Position numbers and translations under genes: made by a program. DNA of 64,000 bases from assembly GCF_004320535.1 (NCBI RefSeq), contig NZ_SIHY01000001.1:1984001-2048000 (forward strand), in the 5' to 3' direction. Below are positions 1 through 41,634 of the stretch, one piece after another. A model generated the notes under the pieces. That model did no database searches. It saw nothing but the letters and a program-made list of their open reading frames with translations, and was not told the origin of the DNA. Origin of the DNA: Arthrobacter sp. S41. Lineage in GTDB: Bacteria > Actinomycetota > Actinomycetes > Actinomycetales > Micrococcaceae. Every line of letters begins with the position of its first letter. Within the stretch, counting starts at the first letter, position 1.

Positions 1-1425
1 AAAATCGCCACCGATGGCACGGTCACCCACGGTGATAGCGCGGTAGATACCTCATTGCTCACTGGCGAATCCGTACCGCAACAGGTTCGCGTGGGCTCCG
101 AAGTTACCGGGGCAACCCTGAACACTTCTGGCCGTCTAGTAATTGAAGCCACCCGCGTAGGTGAAGAAACAACCCTGGCCCAGATGGGCAAGCTAGTCTC
201 CGAGGCACAGTCCGGCAAGGCACCCATTGCGCGGCTTGCCGACCGTATCTCGGCCGTCTTTGTGCCGATTGTTCTGGGCATCGCAGTACTCACCTTTGTT
301 ATTTGGTGGCTGGTTTCCGCTGATCCATATCAAGCATTCAGTGCAGCTGTTGCTGTGCTAGTCATTGCTTGCCCTTGTGCTTTAGGTCTTGCCACCCCCA
401 TCGGTTTGTTGGTGGGTACCGGCCGTGGAGCTCAACTGGGTATCTTGATCCGTGGCCCACAGGTTTTGGAAGACACACGCAAACTGGACACGATTGTTCT
501 AGATAAGACCGGCACCGTCACCACCGGAGTGATGACACATACGGGCACAACCACCGCCGCTGGAGTGGACGCAACTGAAGTTTTGCTGTTGACCGCAGCA
601 GTGGAACACCATTCAGAACATCCAATTGCCCAGGCTATCGCCACCGCCGGTGCCAACGTTGGCACGCTTCCCGAGGTGAGTAATTTCCGCTCGGAGCCCG
701 GTGGCGGAGTATCGGGAACCGTGGCTGGGAAGACCATTGTTGTTGGCCGGCCCAGCTGGCTTGAAGCCCAGGGAACGCTACTTGATTCCTCGGCCCGCTC
801 TTTGCTCGAAGAGGCTGAAGCAGCCGGCGCCACTGCGATTCTGGTTGCGGTCGATGCCCAGTTCCAAGCGGTGATTTCCGTTGGTGATCAAGTCAAAGAA
901 ACTTCTTCAGAAGCGATCAATGAACTGCAATCCCGTGGTCTGCGGGTAGTTTTACTTACCGGTGATAACCCATCGGTGGCCGCCAAGGTGGCAACACAAG
1001 TTGGCATCAAGTCTGACGATGTTTTTGCTGGTGTACTGCCAAGCGAAAAGGCCAAGGCTATCTCTTCGCTGCAGGAGCAGGGCAAGGTTGTGGCCATGGT
1101 GGGTGACGGTGTGAACGACGCTCCGGCGTTGGCTCAAGCCGATCTCGGCATCGCCATGGGCTCCGGCACCGACGTTGCCATTGAAGCTGCAGATATTACT
1201 CTGATGGGCAATGACCTTCATCAGGTCGCTGCCGCCATTGATCTATCGGACAAAACCTTGGCCACGATCAAGATGAACCTGTTCTGGGCTTTCGCCTACA
1301 ACACTGCGGGTATCCCGATCGCGGCCTTGGGTTTGCTCAATCCAATGATTGCTGGTGCCGCTATGGCAGCCAGCTCCGTTCTGGTGGTTGCCAACTCACT
1401 GCGCCTTCGCAGCTTTGGCAAATAG
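1..1425 (+). CDS. copA: Copper-translocating P-type ATPase (P1B), 5' end missing
   Basis: The frame is open from base 1, so the gene begins left of the window; about 474 C-terminal residues are visible. P-type ATPases of this class pump heavy-metal ions out of the cytoplasm using ATP. Seen in order: the actuator motif TGES (about nt 61-72), a membrane segment with the CPC metal site (about nt 370-378), the phosphorylation motif DKTGT (aspartate codon at nt 502), the HP motif (SEHPIA) of the nucleotide-binding domain, the hinge GDGVNDAP (about nt 1102-1125), and two last membrane segments with AYN and MAASS. CPC together with YN and MxxSS is the P1B-1 (Cu+) signature. The N-terminal metal-binding domains cannot be seen. 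The stop lies 8 bp from the convergent stop of the next gene. Confidence 0.93.
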   Translation, partial: KIATDGTVTHGDSAVDTSLLTGESVPQQVRVGSEVTGATLNTSGRLVIEATRVGEETTLAQMGKLVSEAQSGKAPIARLADRISAVFVPIVLGIAVLTFVIWWLVSADPYQAFSAAVAVLVIACPCALGLATPIGLLVGTGRGAQLGILIRGPQVLEDTRKLDTIVLDKTGTVTTGVMTHTGTTTAAGVDATEVLLLTAAVEHHSEHPIAQAIATAGANVGTLPEVSNFRSEPGGGVSGTVAGKTIVVGRPSWLEAQGTLLDSSARSLLEEAEAAGATAILVAVDAQFQAVISVGDQVKETSSEAINELQSRGLRVVLLTGDNPSVAAKVATQVGIKSDDVFAGVLPSEKAKAISSLQEQGKVVAMVGDGVNDAPALAQADLGIAMGSGTDVAIEAADITLMGNDLHQVAAAIDLSDKTLATIKMNLFWAFAYNTAGIPIAALGLLNPMIAGAAMAASSVLVVANSLRLRSFGK

Positions 1426-1433
1426 CCCGGCGG

Positions 1434-2200
1434 TTACGGAGTCTCCCTGACGCTGGTCAGGACTTTCTTCAGAGTTGAGTACTGCTCACTTGCCACGAAA
1501 GTCTTGGCCTCGTCGAGGGTGGTATCCCCGTCCTCATCAAGTCCCAGTGCGTGCAGGTACTCAGGATTCATGGCCATGATTGGGGTTTCCTCGGCACTGG
1601 TTTTGAAGTAATCAATTGCCGGTGCTTCGGTCCAGTTTTGCCATACATCATCGATGATGACGGCAACACTCAAATCCCTGTCGCCGAGGCTGGCTTCCCG
1701 GTAGTAGGAGACCACACTGGTCGGTGCGTACTGCAAATCAGGCGCTGGGGCCGAGTCGAGCACCTCGCGCTTATAGGTGTTCGGGTTGTCAGTGTCCCTG
1801 AAACTAGTCGTTTCAAGATCCAATGCGAGATTCTTCTTTGAATCCAAGATCTTGTAGACCGAATACTCGTCTTGGCATCCATATTCACAATCTTCAACGA
1901 TTTCCCAGTCTTGCGGCAGGTCAAAGGTGACGTTGTACAGCGAAACGGTACGCCAGGTACCCCCGGATCTTCGGTTGGTTCCGTTGGCTCAGGTGTCGGA
2001 GTTGGCTTGGCAGTTGGTGGTCCGGCATGCTCCGGTGCCGGCGCCCAACTCGGCGGACCTGCATGGCCCGGTGGGCCGACATGATCCGGACGTCCTGCAT
2101 GATCAGGTGGTGCTGCGATGGCAACTGCACTGCTGGTAAGCAGAAGCCTCGCTGCCAGTACTGCGCCACCCTTGGATAGCGACTTGAGAATGGGTTTCAT
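1434..2200 (-). pseudogene. Secreted Pro/Gly-rich protein with an apparent frameshift
   Basis: I do not recognise the family. The ATG at 2200 follows a good Shine-Dalgarno (GAGAGAGGA) and opens a signal peptide (MKPILKSL..., hydrophobic core, AIAA cleavage-like site). A low-complexity segment follows with repeated GHAGPP/DHAGRP-type units and a PTPTPEPTEPTEDPG linker. The frame then breaks: the C-terminal domain (TWRTVSLYNV..., ending TSVRETP at 1437) continues in another frame that is open upstream to the same place. One extra G in the five-G run at about 1961-1965 would join the two halves. The second half has coherent protein-like composition (DLPQDWEIVEDCEYG), so this was one gene of about 255 residues. 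It is either a real frameshift mutation or a homopolymer sequencing error. Predicted extracytoplasmic; function unknown. Confidence 0.7.
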
Positions 2201-2368: not shown

Positions 2369-2398
2369 TGACGGTAATCACCACAATGCCATTGATAC

Positions 2399-2600
2399 GT
2401 GGCGGGAGAGTCCCGCCCTCAGCAAGGGCGGGCGCCGTAGGAGCAATTTCCTCCCCGGGAAACTCTCAGGCCCCCGTACCGCCACGAGAAGGCAACTCTG
2501 GAAAGCAGCGCAGAATGAACTGCGCTCACCGAAGGAGCAAGCTTCGCCCAGTAGTCGGGTTGAAGCGAAAACTCTCAGGTTCATATACAGATTGGGGAGG
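2399..2600 (+). promoter_or_regulatory. Tandem glycine riboswitch
   Basis: Two consecutive glycine aptamers are visible. Aptamer 1 (2399-2485) is closed by GTGGCGG/CCGCCAC and has the conserved cores GCCGTAGGAGCAA and GAAACTCTCAGG. Aptamer 2 (about 2490-2600) repeats the pattern with CACCGAAGGAGCAA and AAAACTCTCAGGT followed by ACAG. The paired GGAGCAA and AACTCTCAGG elements at the expected spacing are diagnostic of the gcvT-type glycine riboswitch family. It sits in the 5' leader of an amino-acid permease, one of the known gene classes under this RNA besides the glycine cleavage operon. Confidence 0.92.
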
Positions 2601-2690: not shown

Positions 2691-2771
2691 GTTGCCTTCC
2701 CGGAGCCGGCGAATCTGGCGTCTTGAGCAAAGCAAGTTGCTAGGCGTCACGCCACACTCCTGGAAGGCAAC
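2691..2771 (+). promoter_or_regulatory. Shine-Dalgarno-sequestering helix (riboswitch expression platform)
   Basis: GTTGCCTTCC (2691-2700) is perfectly complementary over 10 nt to GGAAGGCAAC (2762-2771). The latter contains the ribosome-binding site GGAAGG of cycA, 8 nt before its ATG. The helix would close a loop of about 61 nt and hide the Shine-Dalgarno. This gives the glycine riboswitch a translational output; which ligand state favours the helix cannot be decided by reading. Confidence 0.6.
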
Positions 2772-2775
2772 CAGC

Positions 2776-4281
2776 ATGAGTACCACCAGTTCTGATCCCA
2801 CACTTAAACGCGGACTATCAAACCGACACATCCAGCTCATCGCCATTGGCGGTGCCATCGGCACCGGCCTGTTCATGGGTTCGGGTAAAACGATCTCCGT
2901 CGCCGGCCCGTCAGTCATCTTTGTCTACATCATCATCGGCTTCATGCTCTTCTTCGTCATGCGGGCGATGGGCGAGCTACTGCTGAGCAACCTCAATTAC
3001 AAGACTTTCGCCGACTTCGCAGGAGACCTGCTGGGCCCCTGGGCGGCGTTCTTCACCGGCTGGACCTATTGGTTCTGCTGGGTGGTCACCGGCATTGCCG
3101 ACGTCGTGGCCATCGCCCACTACGTTGCTTACTGGTGGGGTGAGCTACCACTATGGATTCCCGCTCTGGGCTGCATCGCGCTACTACTCGTGCTGAATCT
3201 GGCCACCGTGAAAGCCTTCGGCGAAACCGAATTCTGGTTCGCGCTGATCAAGATCATCGCCATCGGCGCACTGATCATTATTGGGCTAGTCATGATCATC
3301 ACCGGGTTCCAACACAATGGTGCCACCGCATCGGTGAGTAATCTGTGGGCCAATGGCGGAATGTTCCCTACGGGCTTCATGGGCTTTGTCGCAGGGTTCC
3401 AAATCGCCGTATTTGCCTTTGTGGGCATCGAATTAGTGGGTACAACTGCCGCCGAAACAAAGGATCCTGAGAAGACCCTGCCCAAGGCCATCAACTCCAT
3501 CCCGATCCGCATTCTGTTCTTCTACGTCGGCGCCTTGATCATCTTGATGACTGTCCAACCATGGAAGCTGTTCTCCCCGGAAAACTCGCCATTTGTCGGG
3601 ATGTTCACCCTAGCCGGGCTGGCTGGGGCGGCCGGCATCATCAACTTTGTGGTGCTCACTTCCGCGACCTCCAGCGCCAATTCCGGCATCTACTCCACTT
3701 CCCGCATGCTGCGCGGCCTAGCCCTAGAAAACGATGCTCCAAAGAGCTTTGCCGAGCTTTCGCACCGCAAAGTTCCCAAGAACGCCCTGATGTTCTCGTG
3801 CATGTTCCTGCTGGCCGGGGTTGTCCTGCTCTACAGTGGCGATTCGGTGATGGGAGCCTTCACGTTGGTTACTACCGTTTCGGCCTTGTGCTTCATGTTT
3901 GTATGGACGATCATTCTGCTCAGTTACCTGGTGTTCCGCGCCCGCCGCCCTCACCTGCACGATGCGTCGGCCTACAAGGTTCCCGGTGGTCGAGTGATGC
4001 CGTACATAGTTCTGGGCTTCTTCGGATTTATTCTGTGGGCCTTGACCACTCAGCCAGATACTCTTGTTGCCCTACTGGTCACACCCATCTGGTTCCTGCT
4101 ACTGGGTATTGGCTACCTCGTGATCCGCCGCCACCCGAGGCACCAAGCGCTACGTATGGCGCACGTGGGCAAGGTGGCCCACGAACGCTATGAAGCCGCG
4201 GCCTACCGAGATGCTCAGGCGTTTGGCCATCGCGATATTCCAGCCACGGATAAGGTTCTGGAGCAAAAGGCGCATAAGTAG
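2776..4281 (+). CDS. cycA: D-serine/D-alanine/glycine-type amino acid permease (APC superfamily, AAT family)
   Basis: This 501-aa, about 12-TM permease should import glycine, alanine and D-amino acids with protons. Its N-terminus (LKRGLSNRHIQLIAIGG, then GTGLFMGSG) and the following EL..LNYKTFADFA and GWTYWFCWVVTGIADV segments are characteristic of CycA. The start is set at ATG 2776, because the only good ribosome-binding site (GGAAGG) is there and the family begins at this point; the frame is open further upstream to 2692, but that stretch belongs to the leader. A tandem glycine riboswitch and an SD-sequestering helix precede it, which supports glycine as substrate or signal. A strong hairpin follows. 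Confidence 0.9.
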   Translation: MSTTSSDPTLKRGLSNRHIQLIAIGGAIGTGLFMGSGKTISVAGPSVIFVYIIIGFMLFFVMRAMGELLLSNLNYKTFADFAGDLLGPWAAFFTGWTYWFCWVVTGIADVVAIAHYVAYWWGELPLWIPALGCIALLLVLNLATVKAFGETEFWFALIKIIAIGALIIIGLVMIITGFQHNGATASVSNLWANGGMFPTGFMGFVAGFQIAVFAFVGIELVGTTAAETKDPEKTLPKAINSIPIRILFFYVGALIILMTVQPWKLFSPENSPFVGMFTLAGLAGAAGIINFVVLTSATSSANSGIYSTSRMLRGLALENDAPKSFAELSHRKVPKNALMFSCMFLLAGVVLLYSGDSVMGAFTLVTTVSALCFMFVWTIILLSYLVFRARRPHLHDASAYKVPGGRVMPYIVLGFFGFILWALTTQPDTLVALLVTPIWFLLLGIGYLVIRRHPRHQALRMAHVGKVAHERYEAAAYRDAQAFGHRDIPATDKVLEQKAHK

Positions 4282-25550: not shown

Positions 25551-25618
25551 GCGATTGCCAGTCTAACCCGGTGCACCGACAAGTAGAATCATCCTTGCGA
25601 TTGTTTTTTGTCAATCGC
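25551..25618 (-). promoter_or_regulatory. Promoter region of the ABC operon with GCGATTG repeats
   Basis: GCGATTG occurs at 25551-25557 and 25597-25603, and inverted (CAATCGC) at 25612-25618. The last pair makes an inverted repeat that overlaps a perfect leftward -35 TTGACA (25614-25609); a weak -10 GATTCT lies 18 bp on. This may be an operator; the rest of the 25477-25728 gap shows nothing. Confidence 0.4.
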
Positions 25619-40682: not shown

Positions 40683-41357
40683 CTATCCCTGGTTGTCGCG
40701 ATCATCCATGTAGATAATCCACTTCACAGCCACCGATGGACGCACTCGCGTCAGTAGGTTTGGCAGCCGTGACCACTGTTCTGGGTTCAGGTTCCAACGC
40801 GCTAGATTTCGGCTCTCAAGATCGATGTTTAGCTCGTCCAGCCGACGCGAAATGGCTGCTTGTTGTGCCTCTGATTTGTAGGCAATACGCAGATATTCGA
40901 CTGCACCGCGAACCGAAGAGCAAAGCAGCGCATAAGCTTCGGGGCTGAAGCCGAAGGCCTCCCACTCTTTGACGTATTGGTTGATTTCCGAGTCTCGATA
41001 GCTTTGACCTTGTCTAAGCTTCTGAGCACGATGGGGCAAGATGAAGGTCCATGGCAACTTCATTCCACGCAGTCTCGGTGGCGTGTACGGATAGTCCAGA
41101 AGGACCGAGTCCCAGCGCAGATCGACTAGTTCTTGCTCCGTGCGCGATGCATGGTGGGGCAACTGTGGAAGGCCAAACTCATCTTCCGGCGCGTCAAAGT
41201 CCGTGTTCGGATGCAGTCCAGGGCCGCCACTGCCAAAGATCGCAAGATTCCCTAGGTCTCGGCAAAGGTTTTGTATTGTGGTCGATTCGCTGTTGAGCTC
41301 GGCCGACCATTTTTTGAAGTCGTCGTGGGACAGGTTTTCTGAGGAATTCTCAGTCAT
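40683..41357 (-). CDS. Unrecognised 224-aa protein under a SAM riboswitch
   Basis: I do not recognise the family. The protein is soluble, aromatic and charged, without TM segments or signal. Notable parts: LAIFGSGGPGLHPNTDFDAP (residues 36-55), PQLPHHASRTEQELVDLRWD, YPYTPPRLRGMKLPWTFILP (about 90-109), and a C-terminal helical block. ATG 41357 follows AGGAG (TAGGAGAATTTCC); the frame is open to 41468, but that part lies in the riboswitch leader. Monocistronic: the next leftward gene starts 258 bp away with its own site. Control by SAM suggests a link to methionine/sulfur or methylation metabolism; this is inference only. Confidence 0.75.
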   Translation of the reverse strand: MTENSSENLSHDDFKKWSAELNSESTTIQNLCRDLGNLAIFGSGGPGLHPNTDFDAPEDEFGLPQLPHHASRTEQELVDLRWDSVLLDYPYTPPRLRGMKLPWTFILPHRAQKLRQGQSYRDSEINQYVKEWEAFGFSPEAYALLCSSVRGAVEYLRIAYKSEAQQAAISRRLDELNIDLESRNLARWNLNPEQWSRLPNLLTRVRPSVAVKWIIYMDDRDNQG

Positions 41358-41449
41358 GGAAATTCTCCTAGCGTGAGAGCGGTGCCGCCCCGTACCGAAT
41401 ACTGGACGAGGCAAACCGCTAACTGAACCGATGGTTTTTGCCTCGGAAC

Positions 41450-41532
41450 GGTTCTTCCCCTGAGGCACCCCGTGAGCCGGAGAGGGGTTGCCGTACGACT
41501 AGCCAGGTACTTTACGTCGTAACTCTTGAACC
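41450..41532 (-). promoter_or_regulatory. SAM-IV / SAM-I-IV-type riboswitch
   Basis: Read leftward, the leader shows the S-adenosylmethionine aptamer core: P1 GGTTC (41532-41528) with GAACC (41454-41450); AAGAGT next to P1; P2 TACGAC with GTCGTA; then CGGCAACCCC...GGGGTGCC (P3) and GGGGAAGAACC closing P1. The order CGGCAACCC, GGGGTGCC, GGGxGAAGA-ACC is that of the actinobacterial SAM-IV class. A further 9-bp hairpin (CGAGGCAAA / TTTGCCTCG) follows it directly. The P3 loop contains TCTCC, complementary to GGAGA of the downstream ribosome site. Confidence 0.72.
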
Positions 41533-41634
41533 TGTTTTCAACCATAGGACAATGCACCGACAGTTTGAACACAAGTGATTGACCATCCTTTAGCTAAGAT
41601 CAGACTGGTCATCATCACCGCGTCCCAGAGGACC

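Follow-up and report, generated by a model that had tools for sequence, protein, structure and literature searches.

A SAM-IV riboswitch behind a DNA-damage-type promoter motif at an uncharacterised gene in Arthrobacter sp. S41 and related actinobacteria

SAM riboswitches are usually read as labels of sulfur metabolism. The locus described here, part of a window of 64,000 nucleotides from Arthrobacter sp. S41, raises the question of what such a label means in front of a gene that belongs to no recognised family. A sequence-only reading of this DNA had proposed a SAM-IV-type riboswitch controlling one unrecognised gene, for which an undescribed role in sulfur or methyl metabolism was suggested. 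The gene (40683-41357, - strand, ATG at 41357, stop codon included) has a clean translation and encodes an uncharacterised protein of 224 aa, here named P0001. From the spacing of open reading frames it appears to be a single gene, as proposed, because the next long frame on the same strand begins about 150-260 nt further on, depending on the start codon.

The assignment of the riboswitch was confirmed by an Infernal scan (cmscan) with Rfam, in which positions 41531-41415 (- strand) matched SAM-IV (RF00634) over the full length of the model (1-116) with 59.3 bits, compared to a gathering score of 38, and an E-value of 6e-08. The core strings named in the earlier reading were found in the leader as well. 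The aptamer (41415-41531, - strand) comprises P1, P2a/b, P3, PK-1, P5 and a tail with a weakened PK-2 strand, and by sequence it has the predicted core of the SAM pocket (P1 U, J1/2 GA, P3 GCAACC/GGUGC), as this region is listed in the accessible part of PMC6890682. Comparison of 11 related leaders, based on the structure that Rfam assigned to the window copy, revealed changes on both sides in 17 of 35 pairs, a value reached by none of 500 shuffles; in P2a this applies to all seven pairs. Further pair types, one of five covariation measures, were not above the shuffles (26 versus a shuffle mean of 31.2), and P1 was paired in just 77% of cells owing to a one-base shift of three rows in this helix. 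Score and covariation together exclude chance as an explanation for the window aptamer.

The two pseudoknots differ in their conservation. PK-1 has five pairs in all 11 rows, with one GU in the window copy. PK-2, formed between the P3 loop and the 3' tail, has at least five contiguous pairs (GU allowed) in nine of the 11 family aptamers, with differing sequences. The best contiguous PK-2 helix in the window has four pairs, two of them GU, or five pairs with a bulge when judged by eye, and the best match in genome G210 is a five-pair helix, again with two GU, at another place in the loop. It had also been pointed out that the P3 loop TCTCC is complementary to the ribosome site GGAGA. This is literally true, but since CTCC occurs in P3 of ten of the 11 aligned family rows, it is not special to the window leader.

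Between aptamer and gene lies the expression platform (41358-41414, - strand), in which sequence and ViennaRNA folds predict a stable stem (GCGGU...ACCGC) that incorporates the end of the aptamer tail and is followed by the SD sequence AGGAGA (41369-41364). By eye, two alternative pairings are possible in the window and in G210, one of the 3' strand of P1 with a downstream segment (GAACCG/CGGUUC) and one of the PK-2 strand with the platform (GCGGU...ACCGC; in G210 GCGGC...GCCGC). A switch between aptamer and platform by means of these alternative pairings is plausible. ViennaRNA folding of the window leader gave no clear switch and no polarity, and each of the four computed states had the SD core paired. 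In G230 and G169 the SD sequence stands immediately after the PK-2 strand, a position that would fit a blocking of the ribosome by the folded aptamer.

The description of P0001 as unrecognised was borne out by the homology searches. There were no matches in Pfam (E up to 10) or NCBIfam (E up to 1) and no significant match in PHROGs, and a profile of the family found nothing significant among PDB sequences (best E 0.056). Eight family members gave no significant Pfam match; weak matches were obtained with one or two of the eight (best E 0.032 in PHROGs and 0.026 in Pfam). A fold search with a mediocre predicted model of P0001 returned no match. As none of these sequence searches gave a significant match, an identity as sulfur enzyme was rejected. 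In PADLOC, the sole match of P0001 was Csm3 at E 0.058, and an identity as anti-phage PglZ was dropped as well, being a partial match of 20.8 bits in one of eight family members. On the basis of a model with a helical core, we propose that P0001, a member of a fast-evolving family, is soluble and mostly helical.

The window site is the weakest of five SAM-IV sites in the genome (3.47 Mb, 7 contigs), which score 106.3, 84.9, 73.3, 72.4 and 59.3 bits. At three of the other four sites, the gene that comes first has known domains, namely O-acetylhomoserine sulfhydrylase, an enzyme of methionine biosynthesis, flavin reductase and OsmC. In 18 genomes of the same genus, called Glutamicibacter, 87 SAM-IV sites were detected at E <= 0.001, 85 of them above the cut-off. 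Clustering of the downstream frames of at least 100 aa, named after the copies in the window's genome, assigned 19 sites to flavin-reductase-like, 18 to O-acetylhomoserine sulfhydrylase, 18 to VIT-family, 14 to OsmC-like and ten to P0001-family frames; the remainder are three singletons and five sites without a frame of this length. Among these eight leftover sites, seven precede a small frame of 95-118 aa and the eighth is a remnant in G210. The seven small frames (L073, L083-L088, in seven Glutamicibacter genomes) end near FFRL and are only weakly similar to the proteins of L112-L115. Another small frame, of 88 aa (107 aa in G127) and without a family match, lies between SAM-IV and the VIT-family gene at all ten translated sites of the 18 (e.g. 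L004 1628-1891 (+)).

P0001 or a relative is encoded in nine of the 18 genus genomes and was not found in the other nine. Among 245 genomes of the bacterial family it was detected in eight, all of them Glutamicibacter. The link between riboswitch and gene holds, as a SAM-IV aptamer stands directly upstream in all nine gene-bearing Glutamicibacter genomes (seven relatives, G246 and the window's genome). There are nine genes for ten sites because G238 has two aptamers in a row; these tandem aptamers (L010 2079-2193 and 1878-1989 (-)) precede one P0001-family gene and the promoter motif discussed below stands at the first alone. A further candidate relative, L014, was dropped, having 54 aa, an internal stop and no SAM-IV nearby. 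In the contigs of named genomes, P0001 alone as query found no match, and the family profile found six contigs, five of Glutamicibacter and one of Arthrobacter sp. MYb213.

The protein sequences diverge fast: the seven relatives in the genus share 26-33% identity with P0001, compared to 90.5-96.1% for an ABC exporter gene among the four genomes compared. For the closest pair, G230/G169, the sequences give a pN/pS of 0.141 over 170 codons, which shows purifying selection as estimated for this pair; in all other pairs, window copy included, pS is about 0.60 or more and synonymous sites are near saturation. The gene neighbourhoods vary as well. With names partly given by eye, the family gene has as its neighbour a gene of two domains (carbinolamine dehydratase-like/VOC-like) in G127, G051, G023 and G238, an ABC exporter pair in G238, G112 and G246, and a purU-like gene in both G230 and G169; the window copy stands opposite an MFS gene. 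G210 has a 68.2-bit aptamer, with promoter and platform of the same type, before a remnant of the family gene; the same MFS gene lies about 2 kb away, with a gene for a Vsr endonuclease in the interval. The apparent frameshift of the copy in G246 and the leader without an intact gene in G210 indicate that the gene is dispensable.

A conserved element was found immediately upstream of the aptamer. On the - strand, a match to the RecA-NDp promoter (41541-41562) consists of the -26 element TGTCGGTG (41562-41555), an 8-nt spacer and the -10 element TATGGT (41546-41541). This promoter match, TGTCGGTG-N8-TATGGT, ends 9 nt before the aptamer. According to the available text of PMC5656591, the consensus tTGTCRgtg-8nt-TannnT belongs to LexA-independent DNA-damage genes of mycobacteria. 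The window sequence cTGTCGGTG-CATTGTCC-TATGGT differs from it at a single, weakly conserved position, the initial t, where it has c. Judging by where the -10 element lies, transcription would start 7-9 nt past it (41532-41534, - strand), at or just before P1. The -26 motif is contacted by PafBC, which is activated by single-stranded DNA (PMC11804915, available part), and a fused PafBC is known from Arthrobacter aurescens. The window's genome has an ORF of 668 aa with two WYL matches (61.5 and 66.1 bits), which is probably PafBC.

To judge such a motif, its background in the genome has to be considered. The tight pattern AANTGTCGGTG-N8/9-TAnnnT, which was modelled on the leaders of the P0001 family itself, occurs at three places in the 3.47-Mb genome and its reversed form at none. 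These places are the P0001 gene, recA (TIGR02012, 563 bits) and an RNase H-domain gene (PF00075; L107 442-1470 (-)). The looser form TGTCRGTG-N8/9-TAnnnT is weak when taken alone, because it has eight matches versus four for the reversed control. One of them lies in the window at 25560-25581 (- strand), upstream of an ABC exporter gene pair, and has a counterpart in G238 (L010 1151-1172 (-)); the exporter pair that adjoins the P0001 relative in G238, G112 and G246 is the same one.

Ten family leaders were compared, those of the nine genes and of the G210 remnant, with the second G238 aptamer set aside as lacking the motif. The loose pattern [TC]GTC[AG]G-N9..12-TAnnnT was present in all ten, ending 8-9 nt before the aptamer, and the strict pattern TGTCRGTG-N8/9-TAnnnT in seven. 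The 76 other SAM-IV sites of the genus had two loose and no strict matches, and shuffled leaders gave 0.019 loose matches per ten.

The same arrangement recurs outside the genus. A composite pattern, TGTCRGTG-N8/9-TAnnnT-N5..12-NTCANGAG, was searched in overlapping samples of 255 family, 394 class and 396 order genomes and gave 13, 16 and 18 matches (42 distinct), with none for the reversed control in the tables. Rfam assigned 10 of 13, 4 of 16 and 7 of 18 of these to SAM-IV (17 of the 42 distinct ones); the others, 3, 12 and 11 (25 distinct), are not SAM-IV. One of the latter, L125, reads by eye like a UvrD-type helicase at a leaderless start. Five of the 17 SAM-IV leaders belong to Glutamicibacter and 12 to 12 genomes of nine other genera. 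The chance expectation for the order sample is roughly 0.015 if bases are taken as uniform and each genome as having 4.8 SAM-IV sites. The 12 leaders score 38.9-89.9 bits, L115 (38.9) and L147 (41.1) being little above the cut-off. All 12 have a spacer of 8 nt and 7-9 nt between the -10 element and P1, where the pattern allowed 8-9 and 5-12 nt, so transcription would start at P1 in these leaders, too. In L131, two SAM-IV aptamers (89-200 (-) and 1530-1641 (+)) lie within 1.6 kb, both preceded by TGTCRGTG, the -10 element of the first being imperfect.

Taking the first plausible frame behind the aptamer as the target, two of these leaders, L123 and L141, encode distant relatives of P0001. Both were reached via the promoter-riboswitch pattern only. 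Profile A1 gave 15.2 bits for L123 and 17.6 bits for L141, compared to 6.9 and 14.1 bits for the best of 5000 shuffles, which leaves a small margin for L141. In a set of 12 sequences, BLAST aligns L123 with L141 at 3e-9, and a profile including L123 gives L141 26.2 bits. In 396 order genomes, with at most eight candidates scored per genome, profile A1 had only two Glutamicibacter genomes among the matches listed and missed L141, whose genome belongs to the order sample of equal size in which the composite pattern was searched. The profile including L123 found only L123's own genome among 23 of its genus. The proteins of L112, L114 and L115 form another family. In Pfam, eight of nine downstream proteins searched from the 12 outside leaders had no match at E <= 0.1 and L133 had matches below the cut-off only, and none of nine proteins behind other composite leaders matched PADLOC at E 0.01.

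Most likely, the leader represents an AND-type gate that combines a damage promoter with SAM-responsive translation over a lineage-specific protein. We consider it probable that the P0001 gene is a two-input gene, in which DNA damage induces transcription and SAM gates translation. Transcription would be started by the RecA-NDp promoter, which in mycobacteria is activated by the WYL-domain regulator PafBC when bound by single-stranded DNA. The SAM-IV aptamer at the start of the transcript would then control access of the ribosome to the gene via the P1/PK-2 region, presumably with the usual SAM-IV polarity, OFF at high SAM, and the product would be soluble and mostly helical, from a family that evolves fast. 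With a damage promoter and SAM-gated translation, P0001 is expected where DNA damage coincides with a low SAM level, as might occur in oxidative or genotoxic stress that affects sulfur metabolism as well.

Among other explanations, the sulfur role suggested in the sequence-only reading deserves attention first. P0001 would then act in sulfur or methyl metabolism as a hitherto undescribed enzyme or regulator, and the type of promoter would be incidental. The company of the other SAM-IV sites in the genome speaks for this, three of four having first genes with known domains and one belonging to methionine biosynthesis. It is opposed by the lack of significant matches in Pfam for eight members and in PDB for the profile, by the presence of the strict promoter motif at seven of ten family leaders and none of 76 other SAM-IV sites, by the fast divergence relative to the exporter gene and by the absence of detectable family members in half of the genus. 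We therefore regard this role as unlikely. A sulfur-metabolism reading does not follow from the riboswitch and is not supported, as no metabolic family matches and the conserved context is DNA damage, with a promoter type common to recA. That this motif is an ordinary promoter merely resembling RecA-NDp is somewhat less likely still; the looser form is indeed just twice as frequent as its reversed control in the genome, but the same motif stands at recA and, always with the same spacing, at 12 SAM-IV leaders from nine further genera.

Two further alternatives concern the aptamer. A SAM-IV variant for another ligand, e.g. an adenosyl compound or a nucleotide linked to DNA damage, would account for the unusual gene association. 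By eye, J1/2 is altered in four of the 11 family aptamers (G112, G238a and G246, and an A-to-C change in G238b), but the consensus J1/2 is kept in the other seven, window included, and GCAACC and GGTGC in all 11. CAACC and GGTG are likewise conserved in the 12 outside leaders, with a deviation of L141 at GAAGA, and we find a different ligand hard to favour. Equally doubtful is a decaying remnant with a non-working switch in the window, in spite of the lowest score of the five sites, the weak PK-2, the gene loss in G210 and the apparent frameshift in G246. The window has an intact frame of 224 aa, an SD sequence and a promoter match, and it shares with G210, judged by eye, both the GAACCG/CGGUUC stem near P5 and the GCGG(U/C)...(A/G)CCGC stem of the platform.

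Compared to known systems, the two-input gene combines familiar parts. A SAM-IV example upstream of O-acetylhomoserine sulfhydrylase is described for Mycobacterium avium in the available part of PMC3774663. With SAM-IV as presented there, the window leader shares the aptamer core, PK-1, the P2/P3 architecture and the cis position before one gene, whereas the DNA-damage-type promoter, the uncharacterised target and the weak PK-2 set it apart. The window's genome resembles the mycobacterial RecA-NDp/PafBC regulon, as far as it is covered by the accessible text of PMC5656591, PMC6789036, PMC11804915 and PMC8223512, in TGTCRGTG, the 8-nt spacer, TAnnnT, the two-WYL PafBC-like ORF and the motif at recA, but here the promoter leads into a metabolite riboswitch. 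Tandem riboswitches such as SAM-II/SAM-V, in the partial descriptions available, also bring two regulatory inputs into one leader, and G238 has two successive SAM-IV aptamers; at P0001, however, the second input is a damage-type promoter and not a second riboswitch class. Among the open-licence PMC matches listed, we found no description of a SAM-IV riboswitch combined with a DNA-damage promoter.

The recurrence in other actinobacteria suggests, at the level of sequence, genes that answer both genotoxic stress and the methyl-donor level. A recurrent fusion of this kind would tie the methyl-donor pool to the genotoxic response and give context to several unannotated protein families. Phages are known to have enzymes that destroy SAM. 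As a speculation, which we rate as rather unlikely, the leaders might define a regulon, so far undescribed, of actinobacterial orphan genes that evolve fast and fire only when single-stranded DNA and falling SAM coincide. Such a coincidence would point to phage infection, with foreign DNA that is damaged or replicating and SAM destroyed by phage enzymes, or to a combined oxidative/genotoxic attack, and the products would then be defence or last-resort stress proteins.

The window contains yet another riboswitch arrangement. At 2393-2600 (+), tandem glycine aptamers of 66.0 and 45.7 bits are located upstream of an ORF (2692-4281) that reads by eye like an amino-acid permease.
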